64,000 bases of DNA from contig CM061920.1 of NCBI GenBank assembly GCA_031002005.1, positions 108,559,447 through 108,623,446 of the forward strand, read 5' to 3'. The stretch comes from Vandiemenella viatica. Lineage: Eukaryota; Arthropoda; Insecta; Orthoptera; Morabidae. Below the pieces are notes generated by a model. It ran no database searches and was not told the origin of the DNA. It was given only the letters and a program-made list of their open reading frames with translations. The translations under genes were made by a program, and so were the position numbers. Positions 5,190 to 63,866 of the stretch are shown piece by piece (positions within the stretch are counted from its first letter, which is position 1; every line of letters begins with the position of its first letter).

Positions 5190-7670
5190 ATGTATCAAGT
5201 AATTGAAACAATAAGTTATCACAGTGCAGTACTGATGGCTATTAGGGGATTCAATAAACCAGTGGCCAAAATAGAAGGGGGAAAGGGGTATAGTTATAAA
5301 AAGGCAAAGACTTTAGAATTGAAGAAATATTTCAGGTAAAGGTTCAACAAATGGAAGGTTGGCGCAAGTGCAGTGGACGCGAAGTGGGAAGAGATAATAA
5401 AACAAGGGGAGGAAATGTTTATTCCAATTCAGAAAATAAAGGGAATAACAGAACCTACAGTCCACAATAGGGAGGTAAGAAGATTAAAGAGGCTAGTGAG
5501 ATGGGAACACTACAGAGTTAAGCGACAGGGACTAGTAGGGAATACTTAAAACAACCAAACACGCAATTAATAGGAACAAAGAGAGAAGCCAGGGATGCAT
5601 TTATGAAGAATATTGTTGGTACAGGGGGACCAATGAATCGTGTATCTAGAAATTTCTATGGCTATATTAGAAAACTGTGGGGAAGGGAAGGTATTCAGAC
5701 TATTGTAGATAAGAACGGAGTTGAAGTCACTGAGGATTTTAAAATGGTAGAGATACTGAGTGACTGGTTTAATGAGATTAATAGGGACTATCATCCTGTG
5801 ATAGGAGGGAATAAATCAGAGGATAGTCACCTTAAAGTATAAATGAGGAATTTACAAAATTTGAAACAGATTCTCAGGAAATTACGAAGGAACTCAGAAA
5901 GATTTTGGGATACGATATTGCACCTTACCTTGAAATTTTATTAAAAATGAGTTTGGAGTCTTGCTGCTTACCAGAGGATTGCAAAAGAGCAACAGTATCA
6001 CCAGTTCATGAAGGAGGGGTTACAAATATGGTTGAAAATTACAGGCCAATTAGTTTGACATCAATGACAGGAAAAATGATGGAGAGATTGATATGCAACT
6101 ATATCAGAAATGTCTGTGAGGAAAGAAACTGGTTTGCAGATCGACAACATGGTTTTAGGCAAGGATATTCATGTGAATCTCAGATGGTGGGCTATATGCA
6201 AGATATTTCAGATGAATTGGACAAGGGAGGCCAAGTTGATAGTGTGGCACTAGATATTTCTAAGGCATTTGACGGAGCGAGCTATAAAATGGTTTCAAAT
6301 AAACTGAAATCTATTGTATTGGATGAAAAGGCTTCCTACTGGATAGAGGAATTTTTAATAGCAGAAAGAAAAGTATTAGAGTAGGAAATACATTATCAAA
6401 AGAGGTGAAAGTAAATATGGGAGTGCCACAGGGTAGTGTATTGATACTGTTGCTATTCATTGTTCTAATGAAGGATTGTGTTGATAGATTACTGTCAGAA
6501 TTTGGTTTTTTTTTTTCAGATGATATAATTGTACACAATAGGATCAAAAAAAGTGAAGACTGTGACCAACTGCAGGGTGACCTGGATAGAATATCTAAAT
6601 GGGTAGGTAAGCATGGAATGAAGTTAAGTGCCATGAAGAGTCGGCTTGTTAGGTACACAGATAAAATACTAAAGGTAGTTTATGATTATAGGATTGGGTC
6701 AGAATTGCTTGTCAAATGCTTGAAGTGTAAGTGTCTTGGCATAACGTTTGATAACAAATTCAACTGGGCAGGTGGTAGGAAAAGGCAACAAAATTCTTCA
6801 TTAACTGGAGAGGGTGATAAGAGGATGTACCAGAGAAGTTAGGGAATTGGGTTACAAAACTTTGATCAGACCTTTTGCTGAATATGGTGGTGTAGTTTTG
6901 GACCCATATTTTGGTTATCAAATACAGGAGTTGGATAGTGTGCAAAGAAGAGCAGCTATATTTGTTTGTGCAAATGCTCGAAGGACCCAGTCATTAACTG
7001 TTACGATAAAATCGAGTGTGGTGGGTGAACGGTTAACGCTATGGCTTCGCATTCTGTAGGACACCGGTTCGAATCCCCGTCCGGGCATCCAGATTTGGGT
7101 TTTTCATGGTATCCCCAAATCATTCCAGGCGAATGCCGAGATGCTTCCTTCAAAAGGCCATGGCCGAATTGCTTCTAGTTCCTTGCCTCAGTCCCATCCT
7201 GCCTCTAACTTAATAGATGTCGACGAGGCGTAAAGCCATAAGTAAAGAAAAAACGACGAAGGAGATGGATTGGGAGTCCTTGTAAGAAAGGAGGAAGGTG
7301 AATAGAGTGATGGGAACGTACAGGGATATATGTTGGTGATGGGGCTTGGAAGGATATTGGTCAGAGAATTAGTAATAGTGCATGGAAGGGGAAAAGCGCT
7401 TGATTTCATGCATAAAGGAGTGGGAAAATTTTCTTTTGTCGATAAGGGTGTCAGGGATTGGAACAAATTGCCACGTGATCAATAATTTACCAAAAACGCT
7501 TAAGGAATTTAACATTAAAATTTGTAAATTGGTAAAGAAAATAATGGATGAATTTAACAAAGAAAATTTTTAAAAAATAATAATAAAAAGGGGTAGTTAG
7601 ATGACTAGGGGAATTGCCAGCGGAGCGTTATTTCAATTTCAATTAAAAGTAATAAATAATAATAAATAAA
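5190..7670 (+). mobile_element. LINE-J (Jockey/CR1-like), longest copy, 5' truncated and decayed
   Basis: In order: a linker with NIVGTGGPMNRVSRNFYGYI (5603-5842); RT fingers and palm with NYRPISLTSMTGKMMERL, FRQGYSCESQM and VALDISKAFD (5905-6384); GVPQGSVL and FSDDIIVHN (6405-6842, where the usual A of the [FY]ADD box is S); a LGITFDNKFNWA stretch; the thumb segment GYKTLIRPFAEYGGVV (6814-7059); and the C-terminus with FLLSIRVSGIGTNCHVINNL (7382-7573). The tail carries the family motif AATTGCCAGCGGAGCG followed by AT-rich repeats. Frameshifts separate every block. A SINE-A interrupts it at 7010-7257. No endonuclease domain is present. It abuts the L1/Tx1-like fragment on its left. Confidence 0.85.
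7010..7257 (+). mobile_element. SINE-A, tRNA-headed, inserted in LINE-J
   Basis: A tRNA-like head with a pol III B-box GGTTCGAATCC (about 7066) is followed by a body containing CCCCAAATCATTCCAGGCGA, AAAAGGCCATGGCCGAATTG and GTCGACGAGGCGTAAAGCCA, ending in an A-rich tail. It splits the LINE-J reading between MQSVT-type codons and the following E-W-D codons. Possible target duplications are ACGATAAA before and ACGACGAA after, with one mismatch. It is the most complete SINE-A in the window. Confidence 0.85.
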
Positions 7671-7674
7671 TATT

Positions 7675-8283
7675 TCTTCTGTGGCCCCTGATTTTTTCTG
7701 TCTCCTCAATTGGTTCCATTCTTCATATTGCATTCTCAATCTGTTGAATTCCCTTCTATCCTATTTGTTGATTCCGTATTTTCAGTTTCTGCAACTCTTG
7801 CTCTATTGATAAGGTCTACTTCCATTGTTTGTGCCTATTGTTAACTCATCGCCCTGCATTCCATTCTACGCTACACATTATGATCGGAGCCAATATTATT
7901 TCCCACATGATCTATACAGTCCAAATTTTGGTTTTAAAATGCTTTGCCCACGTAATCTGCCTAAAGTCCTCGTCGTCCACATGTTTCTACATGGGAAATG
8001 ATCCCCTGTAATTCAAAATGGTGTGACTGTCACGATCGATCGGAATTTTTCACATAATTCTAACAGCATTTCCTGGCTCATTTCGTTCTTATAAATTCAA
8101 AGTACCCTTAATACTGCACACTCTACATTCTTCTGTTCAGAATACCTTCCTCTTACGATCAGTAGATTCTCTGCGATCTATATATAAACTTTACTAGCAT
8201 TTCGATTTGGCAATGCTTCTGGTTGATCACTGTTGCGGAGTATACATGACTGATGTATTGGCTCAGTTTATATCAAAGATAAG
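7675..8283. other. No gene seen
   Basis: AT-rich DNA with no supported reading frame; the frame at 7829-8011 shows no family resemblance. Possibly old LINE debris, but I could not name any piece. Confidence 0.4.
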
Positions 8284-8555
8284 CATGGTATTCAACCCGA
8301 AGGTTGGTTGGACCCTCCCAAAGGAGGCATATTTCGTCTGGTATTGGAGGTAAGGTGGCCAGTTCATTTCCTGCTTACCTAACCTAACCTGCTAATCGTA
8401 ACGTGTAAAGGGGACCTACAGTTCAACGAAGAATCCGAACCACCAGAGCTTTCTGGCGTACTTCACATTGCACAACAAGCACATTCGAACCGGTGTCCTT
8501 TGGTTCTCCAGTCACACACCTTAACCACTGAGCGACCTGGCTACCCACCGTTGTG
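8284..8555 (-). mobile_element. SINE-C, tRNA-headed
   Basis: On the minus strand the head near 8550 reads GTCGCTCAGTGGTTAAGG (A-box) with the B-box-like GGTTCGAATGT. The body includes TACTCCTTTTGGGAGGGTCC-like and CCCCTTTACACG motifs shared with copies at 23285-23515, 29645-29942, 31699-31918 and 44040-44305. The distal (3') end on the + strand begins ATTCAACCCGAAGGTTGG, which is important for reading the Transib-like insertion at 27807. Confidence 0.75.
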
Positions 8556-13404: not shown

Positions 13405-14015
13405 GTTTCAAAATTCTGCACTTGTTGGAGAGAGTGATGAGGGGATGTACGAGAGAAGTCAAGGAATTGGGTTACAAAACTTTGGTCAGACCATTGCTCG
13501 AATATGGTAGTGTAGTATGGGACCCTCATTTTACGTATCAAATACAGGAGTTGGAGAGGGTGCAAAGAAGGGCTGCTAGATTTGTTTCTGGAAATTATCG
13601 CAGAATGCAATCAGTGACGGATATGATAAAGGAGCTGGAATGGGATTCATTGCAAGACAGGAGGAGGATGAGGAGGGTCATGGGAGTGTACAGGGCATAT
13701 ACTGGCGATGAGGCATGGAAAGATATTGCAATAGGTATGAAAAGTAGTGCATGGAAGGGAAAAGATGACCATGACCACAAGCTGGCACTCGATTTCAGGC
13801 ACAAGGGTGTGGGAAGATTCTCTTTTTTAGGTAAGGGTGTCAGCGATTGGAATGAGTTACCAAGAGAAATGATGAATAATTTACCGAAAACTTTGAATGA
13901 ATTTAAAGATAAAATTTGTAGAGGGCAAATGCAGGTGGGTGCAGGATAGAGGGAAGATGGGTGTGTAGGGAAATTGCCACCGGAGCCTGTGCTCCATTGC
14001 AATTAAATTAAATTT
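13405..14015 (+). mobile_element. LINE-J 3' fragment, best-preserved C-terminus
   Basis: An uninterrupted frame (13422-13946) encodes the C-terminal region: RVMRGCTREVKELGYKTLVR, PLLEYGSVVWDPH, ELERVQRRAARFVSGNY, DMIKELEWDSLQDRRR, and SFLGKGVSDWNELPREMMNN ending in a stop. The family tail AATTGCCACCGGAGCC and an (AATTA)-type end follow at 13973-14010. The RT palm and endonuclease are absent, so it is a 5'-truncated insertion. The intact C-terminal frame suggests it is younger than the other LINE-J copies here. Confidence 0.9.
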
Positions 14016-27790: not shown

Positions 27791-27806
27791 GTTATTCAAC
27801 CCGAAG
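27791..27806 (-). mobile_element. Distal stub of a SINE-C, separated by the palindrome
   Basis: TTATTCAACCCGAAG matches the distal end of SINE-C at 8284 (TATTCAACCCGAAGGTTGG). The rest of the same SINE resumes at 29645 with CGAAGGTTGGATAAACCCTC. The overlap CGAAG is the target duplication of the insertion. Confidence 0.7.
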
Positions 27807-29644
27807 CACAGTGTGTTATTTTCCAAATCTAGAGGGACAAAAGTCAATTTTGACACTAGTCTACACAGGCAAAATAGTTATTTATATTTAAAGTAGACAA
27901 ACTATATTATTAGGAACAAAGGTTTATTTTACGCGTATCTGCGCCTAACAATAGAAAAAATAATTTGAACAATGGGCTTCCTGTGACCCACCGATCAAGT
28001 GCTCCATTCGGCCGCGCCATTCGACTGAGTTTGGTCGATGATTACGCTGTGTTTCTGTGTGGTATTAGGAATTTGTGTGTTGCTATTGCTTTTGGTGAGT
28101 TTCAAGATAAGTTTAAGCATGATTTTTCCGTAATACGTTTTAAAACTGAATCATGAGCATCATTAAAACAGAGCGAGATTATTTCTGATAAAGAAAAACT
28201 ACTGAGCCAGTTTCATTTTGAGTTTTAGTTTATTATACCACATTATACCAATCTATTTCTATATTTATTTGAAAGAGCAACTTATTAACTACAAGAATTA
28301 AGTTCATTTGTTTGCGCATGTTTGCGACACCCATACAACTTTTCTTCATTTTCAGAATGACTGCACAAATTTCGCGTACAGAATTTTTCAACGTATGGTT
28401 TGCTAACGCAAAACAATCAAGGATAGATGTTTTGTTGCAGTTTGTATTGCAGTAACTAAGTGACAGATCGTTTTCAAATGACATTATAATGAGTTTAAAA
28501 GCTAACATCAGAATTGATTCTCTAAAAATTGAGCAAAGATGGTCTAAAACTGGAAGACATAGAGACCGCTTCCTATTCTAAATGGTTAGAATGAAACGTT
28601 TCACTACCTGATATTGTCACAAAAACTGCACTTCCTGGGACGAGTTTGGGCATATATGGCAGACCACAAAAATACTTTGAGAGTTCAAGTATTAAAGCAA
28701 AAAGACGACGAATCAAGCATCCCCCTGAAACGGCAAGCCAAGAAGAAATTTCGATGGCAACCGAAGTGCAGCTTCGCAAGTCAGGAAAACGAAATCCTGC
28801 TGCAATCGTTAACGAGCTTTGTCTTCATTCACCTAGAAGAGGCACTAATATTTCTAACCACTTAGAATATGTGTTTAGGAAGCGGTCTGTGTGTCTTCCC
28901 GTTTTAAACCATCTTTGCTCAATTTTTTGGGAATCAATTCTGATGTTAGCTTTTAAACTCATTATAATGTCATTTGAAAACGATCTGTCACTTAGTTACT
29001 GCAATACAAACTGCAACAAAACATCTATCCTTGATTGTTTTGCGTTAGCAAACCATACGTTGAAAAATTCTGTACGCGAAATTTGTGCAGTCATTCTGAA
29101 AATGAAGAAAAGTTGTATGGGTGTCGCAAACATGCGCAAACAAATGAACTTAATTCTTGTAGTTAATAAGTTGCTCTTTCAAATAAATATAGAAATAGAT
29201 TGGTATAATGTGGTATAATAAACTAAAACTCAAAATGAAACTGGCTCAGTAGTTTTTCTTTATCAGAAATAATCTCGCTCTGTTTTAATGATGCTCATGA
29301 TTCAGTTTTAAAACGTATTACGGAAAAATCATGCTTAAACTTATCTTGAAACTCACCAAAAGCAATAGCAACACACAAATTCCTAATACCACACAGAAAC
29401 ACAGCGTAATCATCGACCAAACTCAGTCGAATGGCGCGGCCGAATGGAGCACTTGATCGGTGGGTCACAGGAAGCCCATTGTTCAAATTATTTTTTCTAT
29501 TGTTAGGCGCAGATACGCGTAAAATAAACCTTTGTTCCTAATAATATAGTTTGTCTACTTTAAATATAAATAACTATTTTGCCTGTGTAGACTAGTGTCA
29601 AAATTGACTTTTGTCCCTCTAGATTTGGAAAATAACACACTGTG
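27807..29644. mobile_element. Transib-like foldback transposon (1,838 bp palindrome) with RSS-like ends
   Basis: Position x pairs with 57451-x. The pairing holds without indels at widely spaced checkpoints (27807/29644, 27965/29486, 28156/29295, 28233/29218, 28508/28943), so the arms are at least about 710 bp and nearly identical. Inner parts (28521-28594 against about 28857-28930) are also homologous but diverged, with a 9-bp gap. Both tips begin CACAGTG. On the left (27807-27813) a 23-bp spacer and ACAAAAGTC (27837-27845) follow; the right tip mirrors this. CGAAG is duplicated at both edges, inside a SINE-C. The CACWRTG start, 5-bp duplication and RSS layout are the known hallmarks of Transib, the superfamily related to RAG1. 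No DDE core was recognised, so it is likely non-autonomous. Confidence 0.75.
28646..29218 (+). CDS. 190-residue ORF inside the Transib-like palindrome
   Basis: The frame is already open upstream (LPDIVTKTALPGTSLGIYGR) and continues with GRPQKYFESSSIKAKRRRIK, ATEVQLRKSGKRNPAAIVNE and LCLHSPRRGTN, then a region reading MLAFKLIIMSFENDLSLSYC. The first 60 residues are basic, with a KAKRRR nuclear-localisation-like run and the pattern GRP-x-K-x-F-E-x-SS-x-K-x-KRR. I associate that pattern with the N-terminal part of some insect transposon proteins, but cannot name the family for certain. The last 91 codons lie in the palindrome arm, so they are repeated in mirror image at 28508-28233. It is probably a truncated, rearranged remnant of a larger gene. 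Confidence 0.45.
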   Translation: MGIYGRPQKYFESSSIKAKRRRIKHPPETASQEEISMATEVQLRKSGKRNPAAIVNELCLHSPRRGTNISNHLEYVFRKRSVCLPVLNHLCSIFWESILMLAFKLIIMSFENDLSLSYCNTNCNKTSILDCFALANHTLKNSVREICAVILKMKKSCMGVANMRKQMNLILVVNKLLFQINIEIDWYNVV

Positions 29645-29942
29645 CGAAGGTTGGATAAACCCTCCAGAAGGAGGTATACTTAGTCTGGTATTGGAGGTAA
29701 GGTGGCTAGTTCCTTTTCTCCTTACTTACCTAAACCGGTAACCGTACCGTGTAAAGGGGATCTGTAGTTTAACGTGAAACCCGAACCACGCACGCTTTCC
29801 GGCGTATTTCACATTACACAACATGCAGTGCCAGAGGTTAAGATCGGGCTAAGAACCTTGGAAAATCGCCACCGAGACGATTATTCGAACCGGGGACCTT
29901 TCCATTGTTAACCACTGAACCAACAGACCGGTCCTCTCACTT
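29645..29942 (-). mobile_element. SINE-C, main part, interrupted by the palindrome
   Basis: Minus-strand head near 29942: GGTCTGTTGGTTCAGTGGTT (A-box), CCCCGGTTCGAATAATCGTC (B-box GGTTCGAATAA). The body carries ACGTTAAACTACAGATCCCC and CCTTACCTCCAATACCAGAC. The last few bases of the same SINE are at 27791-27806, on the other side of the Transib-like element. Confidence 0.75.
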
Positions 29943-44039: not shown

Positions 44040-44305
44040 TTTCTATTGGCTGCGTATTCCGCCCCTGTCGTAGCCCCCTTAACCTAACGCAGCAGTCCCT
44101 AACGGGTACAGGGGACCTACAGTTTAACGTTAATTCCAAACCACAGAAGCGTTCTGGCGTGCTTCACATTACGCAGCAAGCTATGCCAGAGCTGAAAGTC
44201 GAGTTAACCGCAAATGAAAAATCTCTGAGGAGACAGGGATTCGAATCGCGGACCTTTCTATCTCCAGTCTGACGCCTTTCCACTGAGCCACCAGACCACT
44301 CCATA
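44040..44305 (-). mobile_element. SINE-C with well-kept tRNA head
   Basis: Minus strand from 44305: GGAGTGGTCTGGTGGCTCAG, TGGAAAGGCGTCAGACTGGA, then the B-box GATTCGAATCCC. The body includes GAATTAACGTTAAACTGTAG and GTCCCCTGTACCCG. The A-box (TGGCTCAGTGG) and B-box are near consensus for pol III. Confidence 0.8.
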
Positions 44306-53960: not shown

Positions 53961-54066
53961 CTCCATTTCTGGAGATAAAAAAAGCATCAATTTGCGAATC
54001 TGCAAAATTGAATTATGTCATGTGAAAATCATTGATCAGGATGAGTAGTCCAAAAATATCTATCTA

Positions 54067-55493
54067 CACAGACGGAAAAAAAAATCCCAACACCAAGAAA
54101 AAATTATTGTAGAGTAATGAAATTTGGACAATGCATTTGTCAAGTGAACATGTTTAATTGATTAAATTTTCAAGATCACAGGTTAATTTAAGCTCAAGAA
54201 AATGCATTTCAAATGTGAAATACTGTTAAATTAATAGCCGGTGTAACCTCCAGAATTTTGAATGCAAGCCTGCAAACGTGAATGCATTGTGTCATACAGG
54301 TTTCGAATGTCACTTTGTGGTATGGAGTTCCATGCTTGTTGTACTTGTGCTGTCAATACTGGGACGGTCAGTGCTGGCTGTGGATGATGCTGGAGTTGTC
54401 GTCCAATGATATCCCATACGTGTTCAATTGGAGACAGATCTGGTGATCTCGCAGGCCAAGGTAACATGTCGACACTCTGTAGAGCACGTTGCGAGACAAC
54501 AGCGGTATGAGGGCGAGCGTTATCCTGTTGAAAAACTCCCCCTTGAATGCTGTTCATGAATGGCAGCACTACAGGTTGAATTACCAGACTGACGTACAAA
54601 TTTGCAGTCAGTGTGTTTGGTATAACCACAAGAGTGCTCCTGCTGTCATAGGAAATTGCTCCCCAGACCATGACTCCAGGTGTAGGTCCAGTGTGTCTAG
54701 GCCGCAGACAGTTTGGTTGCAGGCGTTCCCCTGGCCTCCTTCTGACCAACACTCGGCCATCACTGGCACCAAGGCAGAACCTGCTTTCATCAGAAAACAC
54801 AACAGATCTCCACTCCGTCCTCCAATGAGCTCTGGCTTGACACCACTGGAGTCGCAAACGGCGATGGCTTGTAGTCAGTGGAATGCACGCTACAGGGCGC
54901 CTGGCTCGGAGCTGTCCTTGAAGTAACCGATTTCTAACAGTTCGTTGTGTCACTGTGGTACCAACTGCAGCTCGAATTTCTGCCGCAGACGCAGTACGAT
55001 GCGCCACAGCTGTACGCCGAATACGGCGGTCTTCCCTCTCAGTAGTGCCACGTGGCCTCCCGGAACCCGGTCTTCTTGAGGCAGTACCATCCCTTGACCA
55101 CTGCACCCAACAATCATGCACAGTGGATACATTCCGGCCAAGTCTTTCTGCAATATCGCGAAAAGAAAATCCACCTTCTCGTAGCCCTATTACACGACCT
55201 CGTTCAAACTCGGTGAGCTGTTGATAATGGCTTCTTCGTCTTCTTAAAGGCATTCTTGGCTAACATCAACTCACTATGTCAAATCTCAGCGGTAAATAAC
55301 GTTCACAAACTTTACAGCGCGTATTTAAAGCAAACCTGATTTGCAAGCTCTGAGTAGCGCTACTAGCGCCACACTTATGCGCGAAGCGCGAAATTTGAAT
55401 CGATGTCATCTTTCAGATGTATAAACACGCCTACCAAATTTCGTTTATCTAACACAAGTCTTTCTTGGTGTTGGGATTTTTTTTCCGTCTGTG
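54067..55493 (-). mobile_element. Tc1-like transposon, structurally complete
   Basis: Inverted termini CACAGACGGAAAAAAA followed by ATCCCAACACCAAGAAA pair over about 34 bp; they differ by one A in the A run. TA flanks both ends (54065-54066 and 55494-55495), the Tc1/mariner target site. The 1,427-bp element encodes one uninterrupted transposase on the minus strand. It sits in the presumed intron of the 52650/58457 gene. The TIR identity and intact gene suggest a recent insertion. Confidence 0.95.
54231..55253 (-). CDS. Tc1-like transposase, 340 aa, uninterrupted
   Basis: It catalyses cut-and-paste transposition of its own element. Residues 13-50 form the first helix-turn-helix (LTEFERGRVIGLREGGFSFR, then DIAERLGRNVSTV). 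GSGRPRG at 63-69 is the AT-hook-like linker, and residues 75-118 form the second HTH, completing a bipartite paired-like DNA-binding domain. The DDE core has D155 in VVFSDESRF, D244 in FQQDNARPHTA and E277 in SPDLSPIEHVWD. D244 and E277 are separated by 32 residues, two fewer than the classical DD34E. The protein ends in NSGGYTGY, a C-terminus I associate with arthropod Tc1-like families. Length is normal (about 340). ATG at 55253 is the first in frame. All three catalytic residues are present, so it may be active. Confidence 0.95.
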   Translation of the reverse strand: MPLRRRRSHYQQLTEFERGRVIGLREGGFSFRDIAERLGRNVSTVHDCWVQWSRDGTASRRPGSGRPRGTTEREDRRIRRTAVAHRTASAAEIRAAVGTTVTQRTVRNRLLQGQLRARRPVACIPLTTSHRRLRLQWCQARAHWRTEWRSVVFSDESRFCLGASDGRVLVRRRPGERLQPNCLRPRHTGPTPGVMVWGAISYDSRSTLVVIPNTLTANLYVSLVIQPVVLPFMNSIQGGVFQQDNARPHTAVVSQRALQSVDMLPWPARSPDLSPIEHVWDIIGRQLQHHPQPALTVPVLTAQVQQAWNSIPQSDIRNLYDTMHSRLQACIQNSGGYTGY

Positions 55494-55499
55494 TACTAA

Positions 55500-61028: not shown

Positions 61029-63866
61029 ATGGATAAAAACATTCTACGACTCGGAGCGTGGAATATTAGAAGTCTGAATAGGGCAGGTAGGCTTGAAAAT
61101 CTAGAAAGGGAGATGGAACACCTTAAGTTAGATGTTGATGGGATTAGTGGGACTAAATGGAAGGACGCACAGGATTTCTGGTCCGGGGAACACAGGATAA
61201 TTAGCACACAAGCTGTCAATGGAGTCACTGGTTTAGGATTTGTAATGAACAAGAAAGTAGGGAAACGGGTGAGTTATTATGAACAGTTTAGTGATGAGGT
61301 TAGAAACTAAGCCCATCCCAACCACATTAGTATAAGTGTATATGCCAACGTCACAGGAAGATGATGAAGAAATAGAAAAAATATACGCTTAAATTGAAGA
61401 ATTAATCCAATATGTGAAGGGGGAAGAAAATCTAATAATCATGGGTGATTGGAATGCAATAGTGGGAGAACGAAAAGAGGGGAATACTCTAGGAAGTTTT
61501 GCTCTAGGCGAAACAAATGAGCGAGGAAGCAGGTTGCTAGAATTTTGTGAAAGATATAAGCTAATAGTGGCAAACACACTGTTTAAGAACCATGCAAGAA
61601 GAATATACACCTAGAAACGTCCTGGAGATACAGGCAGGTATCAGTTAAATTATATCATGATCAAACAGAGATTCAGGAATCAAGTTCTAGACTGTAAAGC
61701 GTACCCAGGAGCAGACATAGACTCTGACCATAATTTGATAATAATGAAGTGCAGGCTGAAAATTAAGAGAATAAGGAAGCAGCATAAGCAGAACAGACTG
61801 GAAATGAATAAACTGAAACAATCTAGCACAAGAGAAAAATTTGCAGAAATGGTAGACCTAGGTTTAAGAATTAACTGTGAAAGGAGCTCAACCGAGGACG
61901 AATGGAATGCATTAAATACCGAAATAATGAAAGCTGGTAAAGAAACATTAGGCTTTAGGGAACAAGCTGCATGAAAACCTTGGAGCACACGAGAAATTTT
62001 GGAGCTGATGGATCAGAGGAGAAGGTACAAAAATGCTCAGGATGAAGAAGGAAGAGAGCAGTACAGGCAATTTAGAAATCATATAAATAGGAAATGCAAA
62101 ATAGCAAAAGAAAAATGGCTGCAAGAAAAGTGTGAATAAATAGAAAAGGAAATGATCGTAGGAAAAGTAGATGTGGCATATGGAAAGATCAAACAGAATT
62201 TTGGAGAAATGAAGAAAAGAGGTATGAACAGCTGCCGATGGGAAACCTCTTTTAAGCTCAGAAGATAGAGCTAACCGATGGAAGGAATACATCGAGAAAC
62301 TGTATGTTGGGGATGACTTGAACAATAGTGTAATTGAAAAGGAAGACGATGTCAACAATGATGACTTAGGAGATCCTGTTTAGAGGACAGAATTTAATAA
62401 CGCTCTGAATGACTTGAAGCAAATAAGGCAGTTGAAATTGATGAGATCCCTGCAGAACTTCTTAAATCCCTAGGAGTAGAAGGGTTCGAAAGATTATTCA
62501 AACTGATATCAAAAAGTTATGAAACAGGAGAAATTCCAAATGATTTTAATAAAAATATCATCTTCACACTTCCAAAGAAAGCACAAGCACAAGAGTTATC
62601 GCACCATTAGTCTAACATCACATGCTTCAAAATTACTTACCAGAATAATATACAGAAGGATGGAAAGGGTAGTAGAAGAGATAGTAGGTGAAGATCAGTT
62701 TGGGATTAGGAAAAATCGCGGTACAAGGGAAGCAATTCTGTCTTTAAGATTAATACTTGAAGGGCGGATCAAGAAAAACAAAGATACTTTCATGGCATTT
62801 GTTGATTTAGAAAAAGCTTTTGATAATGTTAGGTGGGACAAGATGTTCAAAATTTTGAAGAAGTCAGGTCTAAGGTATCGAGATAGAAGAATACTCAATA
62901 AACTATATAAGAATCAAGTGGATATAATAAAAGTAGAGAATCACGAGAGACATGCATCAGTTAAAAAGGGTGTGAGACCAGGTTGTAGTCTATCCCCGTT
63001 AATATTCAACTTGTATGTAGAAGAAGCAATGAAGAAAGACAAAGAAAAATTTCCATGTGGCATAAGTTTTAAGGGAGAAAAAATCAGTATGCTACGATTT
63101 GCTGATGACATTGTCTTGTTAGCAGAGAGGGCTGAGGATATTGAGAAGTTACTGAATGGCATGAACAAAATACTGAAGGAAGATTTTGGGCTGAATATAA
63201 ATCAAAGCAAGATAAAAGTGATGAAATGTAGCAGAAATGATACCAACACTACTAGATTAAATATGAAAATAGGATCGGATGCAATAGGAGAAGTAAGTGA
63301 GTTCTGTTACTTGGGAAGCAAAATTACTACCGATGGCCGAAGCAGGAATGATGTTAAAAGCAGAATAGCACTAGCAAAAAGAGCCTTCATGAAAAAGAGA
63401 AACCTTTTAGTTTCAAATATTGATCTACGAATAAGAAATAACTTTTCAAAAATTCTATGTGTGGAGCACATCACTTTACGGTTGCGAAACATGGACTTTA
63501 GGAATACCGGAAATAAAGAAAATTGAAGCATTTGAAATGTGGTGCTACAGAAGAATGTTGAAAATTAGGTGGACAGACAAAGTAAGAAATGAACGAGTTT
63601 TGGAAATGATGGGTGAGAGAAGAAGTTTATGGAAGAAGCTTACAGAAAGACGAGACAGGCAGGTAGGTCATATTTTGAGACATGCTGGATTGGTTAATTT
63701 GTTATTGGAGGGAACAGTCGAAGGTAAGAACTGTAGAGGAAGACAGAGATCAGAATATATGATGCAGATAATTGAGGACGTGGGTTGTAAGGGGTATGTA
63801 GAAATGAAGAGGTTAGCACAGGATAGGAAGGGATGGAGGATTGCATCAAAGCAGTCGAAAAACTGA
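61029..63866 (+). pseudogene. RTE-like endonuclease/reverse transcriptase, broken
   Basis: ATG at 61029 begins MDKNILRLGAWNIRSLNRAG, an APE start (the N of AWNIRS is the usual metal-site neighbour). IIMGDWNAIVG (about 61438) and SDHNLIIMKC (about 61724) are the middle and last endonuclease motifs. The RT shows YRTISLTSHASKLLTRII, FVDLEKAFDNVRWDKMF, VRPGCSLSPLIFNLY (P replaces the usual Q of RQG) and LRFADDIVLLAE. The end has YLGSKITTDGRS, LYGCETWTL and FEMWCYRRMLKIRWTD. Breaks: stop after EVRN (61308-61310), TAA near 61391, TAG at 61612-61614 where W is expected, TGA at 61972-61974, stops near 62137-62148, and frame changes near 62370, 62595 and 63470. Dead as a single protein. Confidence 0.85.

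Follow-up and report, generated by a model that had tools for sequence, protein, structure and literature searches.

The Foldback and Its Tips

What kind of element carries the layout of a vertebrate 23-RSS at both of its tips, and how does a long palindrome of this kind arise and spread? The question is raised by a foldback of 1838 bp at positions 27807-29644 of the 64,000-nucleotide stretch of Vandiemenella viatica DNA analysed here (the window). The element is very probably a non-autonomous foldback derivative of Transib, a cut-and-paste transposon with a RAG1-core-like transposase, with an origin and spread as set out below.

The heptamer CACAGTG forms the left tip on the forward strand (27807-27813) and the right tip on the reverse strand (29638-29644). 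Inside each heptamer, after a spacer of 23 bp, stands the nonamer-like ACAAAAGTC (27837-27845, forward; 29606-29614, reverse), which matches the RSS nonamer ACAAAAACC at 7 of 9 positions. This arrangement had been described in an earlier, sequence-only reading, and it is exact at both ends and in its coordinates. In the window, only the two foldback tips match the pattern CACWRTG-N23-ACAAAAR, which was absent from all 100 shuffles. A nonamer with at least 7 of 9 matches at one fixed position has p = 0.0021 (observed rate in the window 0.0026), and over all spacers from 10 to 30 the chance of 7 of 9 is 4.3%; the nonamer is therefore modest evidence by itself, and more weight is given to the heptamer, the tips and the duplication of CGAAG on either side (27802-27806 and 29645-29649).

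The arm alignment identifies the left arm (27807-28591, forward, 785 bp) as the 5' end of a Transib, comprising the terminal inverted repeat (TIR), a presumed 5' untranslated region and the start of the transposase frame; by BLAST, this arm is 75-91% identical to the relatives L052, L055, L057, L058 and L059. The right arm (28852-29644, reverse, 793 bp) is an inverted second copy of the same 5' end, and the 260-bp loop between them (28592-28851, forward) is the next part of the Transib frame. Arm against arm, the outer 714 bp are identical, in keeping with the arms of over 700 bp reported earlier, whereas 7 of the inner 71 aligned positions are mismatched and an 8-bp indel is present as well, a mosaic absent from that report. 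The inversion junction used for counting copies lies at 28841-28886 (forward), starting with GGCACTAATAT and followed by TTCTAACCAC. RNA folding of the central 652 nt gives a long hairpin, as expected, which carries no information on transcription.

The Insertion Site

A repeat related to the flanks of the foldback, about 81% identical, lies at 8276-8481 (forward) and is uninterrupted across the insertion point (...TTCAACCCGAAGGTTGG...), with one CGAAG where the foldback has two. The right flank of the foldback is part of a dispersed repeat, whose right-hand remainder (29650-29905, forward) matches 8298-8481 and 44097-44261. The two outer flanks differ from one another and are seamlessly joined in the unoccupied relative. 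This empty-site relative supports an insertion with a 5-base duplication independently of the tips, and it agrees with the duplication of CGAAG proposed from the letters of the window alone. Foldback reads are an existing artefact of long-read data (PMC12870357), but an origin of the palindrome in such an assembly error is next to inconceivable here: differing flanks that join seamlessly at an unoccupied site, arms that differ near the loop, and perfect duplications around 26 of 28 copies at separate places all argue against it.

The sequence of the unoccupied site (27797-27806 plus 29650-29654), CAACC-CGAA-GGTTG, would allow a 5-bp stem closed by a loop of 4 bases. This target hairpin was given no weight, as about 2.5% of sampled window positions are equally good. 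The window as a whole contains many diverged repeats. It also has a Tc1/mariner-like element at 54065-55495, with matching inverted ends and an uninterrupted 340-aa transposase frame (DDE_3 and HTH_Tnp_Tc3_2), a reverse-transcriptase frame (RVT_1) at 62519-63526, and retrotransposon-like frames recognised by eye at 5905-6384 and 13422-13949.

Transposase Remnants and the Affiliation with Transib

Each arm carries the start of a transposase frame. In the left arm it runs from an ATG at 28357 to 28573 (forward); a TAA stands at 28453-28455, and 8 bp are deleted after 28573. In the right arm it occupies 28852-29094 (reverse), with its ATG at 29094 and the same TAA, and is without the deletion. 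The loop continues the reading frame of the arm. The transposase gene in the shared outer arm is thus already a broken one, because the TAA is common to both arms. A putative intron of the 5' untranslated region, recognised by eye, spans 28095-28355 (forward) between a GTGAGT donor and a TTTTCAG acceptor and is mirrored in the right arm; in the relatives P0001 and P0005, a stretch that resembles it in translation lies directly upstream of the ATG. A GRP-containing stretch encoded by the loop is aligned with the beginning of the RAG1 core, the position of the nonamer-binding domain of RAG1 (PMC6941560). Its retention in the loop is probably due to chance, because the frame is broken upstream.

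As a protein query, the combined arm and loop frames retrieved P0001 (732 aa, 62%, E 8e-55) and P0002 (697 aa, 56%), the only two with E <=0.001 among 100 candidates. P0001 aligns with the HzTransib structure 6pqn at E 8.8e-122 and with Pfam RAG1 at 1.3e-11, and the best fold match of its predicted structure (mean pLDDT 78, pTM 0.62) is HzTransib 6pqx (E 9.9e-38). Residues D126, D225 and E436 of HzTransib, which are named in PMC6941560, align with D319, D427 and E637 of P0001 (6pqn alignment; numbering offset 17). The RAG1-core-like DDE domain is thus present in the partner transposase P0001 and absent from the foldback itself. Direct PDB searches with pieces of the foldback gave weak matches only, to kinesin-light-chain-type repeats and SYCP3, and the match to the HzTransib structure needed the full-length relative P0001 as query. 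Eleven of 19 aligned relatives match Pfam RAG1, and among the 120 listed of 339 relatives from a wider protein search, the few that are named belong to insects such as Arctia, Diabrotica, Leptopilina and Spodoptera. No relatives were found in the viral contigs searched, and an Rfam search gave no match at gathering thresholds. A supposed bacterial Transib, the sole genome_contigs match (L001), was rejected as a chance match inside a signal-transduction-like protein, and a sigma-70 promoter scan is without meaning in an animal genome.

Heptamer-like ends and 5-bp duplications are common to Transib and to the RAG-like transposons, as stated in PMC7204232, and the foldback could on that account descend from a RAG-like element (RAG1L-RAG2L, ProtoRAG type) instead of a single-gene Transib. 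Such a descent is very improbable, since P0001 is far better aligned with HzTransib (E 9e-122) than with RAG1 (best chain, E 3e-7) or RAG1L (E 0.09), and the full-length relatives L058 and L059 are elements of 2.9 kb that are mostly taken up by a Transib-like frame. The tips, the duplications and the match of P0001 to HzTransib in both sequence and fold bear out the earlier proposal of a non-autonomous Transib relative.

A Dispersed Family with One Junction

In the host genome of 3.72 Gb, the inversion junction has 89 matches at <=3 mismatches, the window included, of which a few could be haplotype, segmental or assembly duplicates; 33 are exact, and the reversed control gave 0. Further copies, for which the sequence-only reading had suggested a search, are numerous. 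A search with a 148-bp tip gave 1222 first-look candidates, of which 40 were scored, 39 of these being 100% identical over 147-148 bp. Of 20 tip-selected places read, 19 proved to be foldbacks that begin and end with a 5' arm: 17 copies measure 1807-1847 bp, L046 measures 1829 bp, and L047, whose loop holds a nested insertion, measures 5989 bp. L049 is interrupted by an insertion. Long inverted arms that make up most of the element, as is typical of foldback-type elements, are found in the window and in 18 of 18 aligned copies.

Perfect 5-bp duplications surround 18 of the 20 elements formed by the 19 tip-selected copies and the window, and those of L037 and L040 agree at 4 of 5 bases. Twelve of these 18 perfect duplications fit CGNCG, and their G+C content is 88%; the window's own CGAAG fits only CGNNG. 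Because this sample had been chosen by tip, a second one (n=10) was selected by junction. Both tips lie in the stretch read in 8 of its 10 members, with a perfect duplication in 8/8, and the other 2 are without a right tip. Taken together, 26 of the 28 copies with both ends read, the window among them, have perfect duplications, mostly CG-rich. The GC-rich, CGNCG-like character of these targets is that of Transib, for which a CGNCG target is given in PMC5704228. None of the findings that the sequence-only reading had named as refuting it (different ends, another duplication length, a partner transposase from another superfamily) turned up in the copies and relatives examined.

The junction itself is the same in 18/18 aligned copies, barring a base change beside it. 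One founding rearrangement was thus amplified, because the 18 aligned copies and the 89 matches share one junction, and the perfect duplications in 26 of 28 copies indicate that this happened by transposition. The palindrome might instead never have been mobile as a unit, a full-length Transib having inserted at each site and its 3' end having been converted to a 5' end in place. The tips of the full-length relative L059 share 41 bp at 97.6%, and a conversion that started inside the tip would leave the duplication unchanged. A junction at one and the same base in 18/18 aligned copies and 89 matches would, however, not be expected of independent events, which makes conversion in place highly unlikely and leaves transposition of an already palindromic element as the preferred reading.

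Nine of the 28 insertions read at both ends occupy, as judged by eye and with small changes allowed, an identical position within one tRNA-like repeat, GGATTCGAAC | CGNCG | TCCTCCCGAA. These are L035, L038, L040, L042, L046, L047, L050, L060/L061 and L074/L075; in L032 the flank matches the tRNA-like repeat on one side only.

Full-Length Parents and a Longer Foldback

A genome protein search returned 66 matches from 61 scored of 3635 candidates. Two elements of the family, L058 and L059, are full-length. L058 measures 2884 bp and lies between CGGCG and CGGCG; L059 measures 2856 bp and lies between CGCCG and CGCGG, a duplication of 4 of 5 bases. Both have CACAGTG and a 23-bp spacer at each end. 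The nonamer-like ACAAAAGTC occupies the same place as in the foldback at both L059 ends and at the 5' end of L058, that is, at 3 of the 4 ends, and ACCAATGTC (5 of 9) stands at the 3' end of L058. BLAST finds no match between the L059 ends longer than their 41 common bp, and the L058 ends are more diverged than those of L059. Symmetric 23/23 ends are thus the state of the parent. Two tips with a 23-bp spacer had been called unusual in the light of the 12/23 rule, and this claim is not supported: the layout of the foldback is inherited and no breach of the rule, because both full-length parents read have a 23-bp spacer at both ends.

The three longest family relatives read, L058, L059 and L055 (a long copy whose 5' tip is missing and whose 3' end was not found), all have broken frames, and no intact autonomous copy of the family was identified among the 61 scored of 3635 protein-search candidates. 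The broken frames count against the preferred account, which needs a source of transposase during the spread. A pattern from the 3' end of L059 has 4 genome matches at <=3 mismatches, L059 included, a number that is an undercount of parental 3' ends because the pattern misses L058.

L057 and L052 are foldbacks as well, sharing another junction, and represent a longer form (form A) beside the 1.84-kb form of the window (form B). L057 measures 2550 bp, has CGCCG on both sides and CACAATG at one tip, and its arms are identical at 936 of 986 positions; one end of L052 is truncated within the stretch read. The junction of form A has 40 genome matches, one of them exact. Form A consists of about 1-1564 plus inverted 1030-1 and form B of 1-1045 plus inverted 793-1, and the shorter form may thus have come from the longer by one internal deletion, a derivation with which the identity to form B of L052 (91%), the closest of the copies compared, agrees. 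The alternative, separate inversion events for the 2.55-kb and the 1.84-kb forms, deserves serious attention, although it is somewhat the less probable of the two. The junctions of A and B differ, no remnant of A's junction was seen in B, and in identity to B the form A copy L057 (86-89%) barely exceeds the long copy L055 (86%).

The genome also holds other Transibs. L053 (204-3573, reverse complement) and L054 (528-4038) belong to another family; they measure 3370 and 3511 bp, are flanked by ACGTG and GAATG duplications, and have CACAGTG and like sequence at both ends. The spacer of this family is ambiguous as judged from the nonamer-like motif, which matches best (7 of 9) with a spacer of 10 and agrees at 5-6 of 9 bases with a spacer of 22. 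The protein match of L053 has no stop over residues 219-707. A further group was met in six-frame translation (7 matches on 6 contigs, covering P0001 residues 358/359-729 at 47-48% identity), and with its uninterrupted 414-aa frames it is possibly a young Transib family.

Likeness of the Two Arms

The arms of one copy are more alike than chance pairing would make them. Over the outer 700 bp, their divergence within a copy is 1.47%, compared with 3.25% when arms are paired by shuffling (0/10000 as low). At the roughly 66 positions beside the loop, the divergence within a copy is 7.3% and that of shuffled pairs 8.75%; the former lies below every shuffle and is not below that of like arms of different copies (6.3-7.2%). 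The contrast between the outer arm and the loop side is one of degree only, because the shuffle test was passed, by a small margin, beside the loop too.

Exchange from arm to arm appears to be episodic, because in only 5 of 18 copies are the arms closer to each other over the outer 700 bp than to any like arm of another copy. Of the changes confined to a single copy, 20 occur in both of its arms and 87 in one arm only. In a tree of the outer arms, 8 of 16 cherries pair the arms of a single copy and 8 pair like arms of two copies, with support of 0.42-0.996 and none given for the window's pair. In L038/L041, L035/L043 and L039/L044, left groups with left and right with right, and therefore moving as such does not mix the arms. 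Gene conversion is the probable cause of the likeness, and correction during assembly or polishing could in part contribute to the homogenisation. An origin of the two arms from two different Transib copies was the first idea suggested by 714 identical bp followed by mismatches and an indel; it was dropped after comparison with the other copies, since just 7 of the 18 that were aligned carry the 8-bp deletion, and the inner arms are similar in a copy that lacks it, for example L040.

Proposed Origin and Spread

The parent is a Transib of about 2.9 kb with inverted ends of about 40 bp, each reading CACAGTG, 23 bp and ACAAAAGTC or similar. Its cut-and-paste movement is taken from the family; the ends and duplications are shown in decayed copies. 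In the founding event, the 3' half would have been lost and an inverted second 5' end put in its place. This probably came about when repair of the gap left by excision went astray: the 3' tip would have paired with the near-identical 5' tip and the 5' arm would have been copied, the roughly 40 bp common to both tips offering a strand in gap repair a natural place for mispairing. For Galileo, PMC4168063 discusses gap repair that is aborted or that switches template.

A Transib transposase provided in trans by another copy would then have excised the palindrome and reinserted it at CGNCG-like sites with 5-bp duplications, giving about 89 recognisable copies. Such mobilisation is possible because both tips are still valid transposase sites, and we infer it because of the duplications and the tips. 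Copying between the arms of one element would meanwhile keep the outer 700 bp alike and the part adjacent to the loop much less so.

The foldback is a natural experiment on the end requirements of a RAG-type transposase. If this account is correct, nothing inside the outermost ~40 bp of the 3' end would be required for transposition, because about 89 recognisable places were reached by a palindrome whose ends are both 5' ends, and symmetric 23/23 ends would work in this lineage, matching the symmetry of the parents themselves. The full-length parent, the 2.55-kb foldback and the 1.84-kb foldback form a series in which exchange between arms can be measured. The resemblance to the RSS is real and derives from the parent element; the importance first expected of it shrinks because the layout at both tips is inherited from a symmetric parent.

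A further role can be imagined for the foldbacks, namely that of a dispersed, self-spreading silencer of their own Transib parent, similar to Mu killer. This reading, which we regard as improbable, is suggested by the inward-pointing 5' region and transposase start in each arm. A transcript that crosses the loop would form a hairpin, its stem measuring about 785 bp, and give small RNAs against the parent, and the foldback would then be an animal counterpart of the maize locus, but one that transposes. The excess of foldback junctions (89 and 40 matches) over recognisable parental 3' ends (4, an undercount) fits such a role.

Comparison with Known Systems

Transib, as known from HzTransib and from Drosophila and Anopheles, shares with the foldback the CACAGTG ends, the 5-bp duplications, the CGNCG-like target and, in the relatives of the foldback, the RAG1-core-like transposase. 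The Transib terminus CACWRTG is found as CACAGTG at both window tips and in L058, L059, L053 and L054. Transib ends are described as both symmetric and asymmetric in PMC9435367 and PMC8355894. The foldback differs in its palindromic build, both of its ends being 5' ends and its arms measuring about 785 bp, whereas the ends of the parent L059 share 41 bp. The vertebrate 23-RSS has in common with it the heptamer, the 23-bp spacer and a nonamer matching at 7 of 9 positions; in contrast to the pairing prescribed by the 12/23 rule of V(D)J recombination, the spacer is 23 bp at both ends of the foldback, L058 and L059, and there is no partner with a 12-bp spacer.

Galileo and other foldback-like elements of Drosophila share the long inverted arms able to take in transposase coding sequence, and in Galileo an insertion in one arm can pass to the other, again according to PMC4168063. 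Mu killer of maize resembles the foldback in its two transposase-side ends and its inverted duplication of part of the transposase gene, as described in PMC3440606; Mu killer is a locus that silences MuDR, whereas the foldback has 89 dispersed junction matches and is similar in DNA architecture alone. Like MITEs, the foldback is non-autonomous, multi-copy and defined by its ends, but it exceeds the 800 bp given for MITEs in PMC9033116, and it contains remnants of transposase coding sequence. Among the papers listed by searches of a full-text collection, with most subscription papers and Repbase outside its scope, titles and the openings of abstracts showed no Transib foldback in print. What sets the foldback apart from these systems is the second 5' end in the place of the 3' end, together with arms more alike than chance pairing would make them; it is a well-documented form of Transib that has apparently not been described before, clearly amplified and with its arms partly homogenised.
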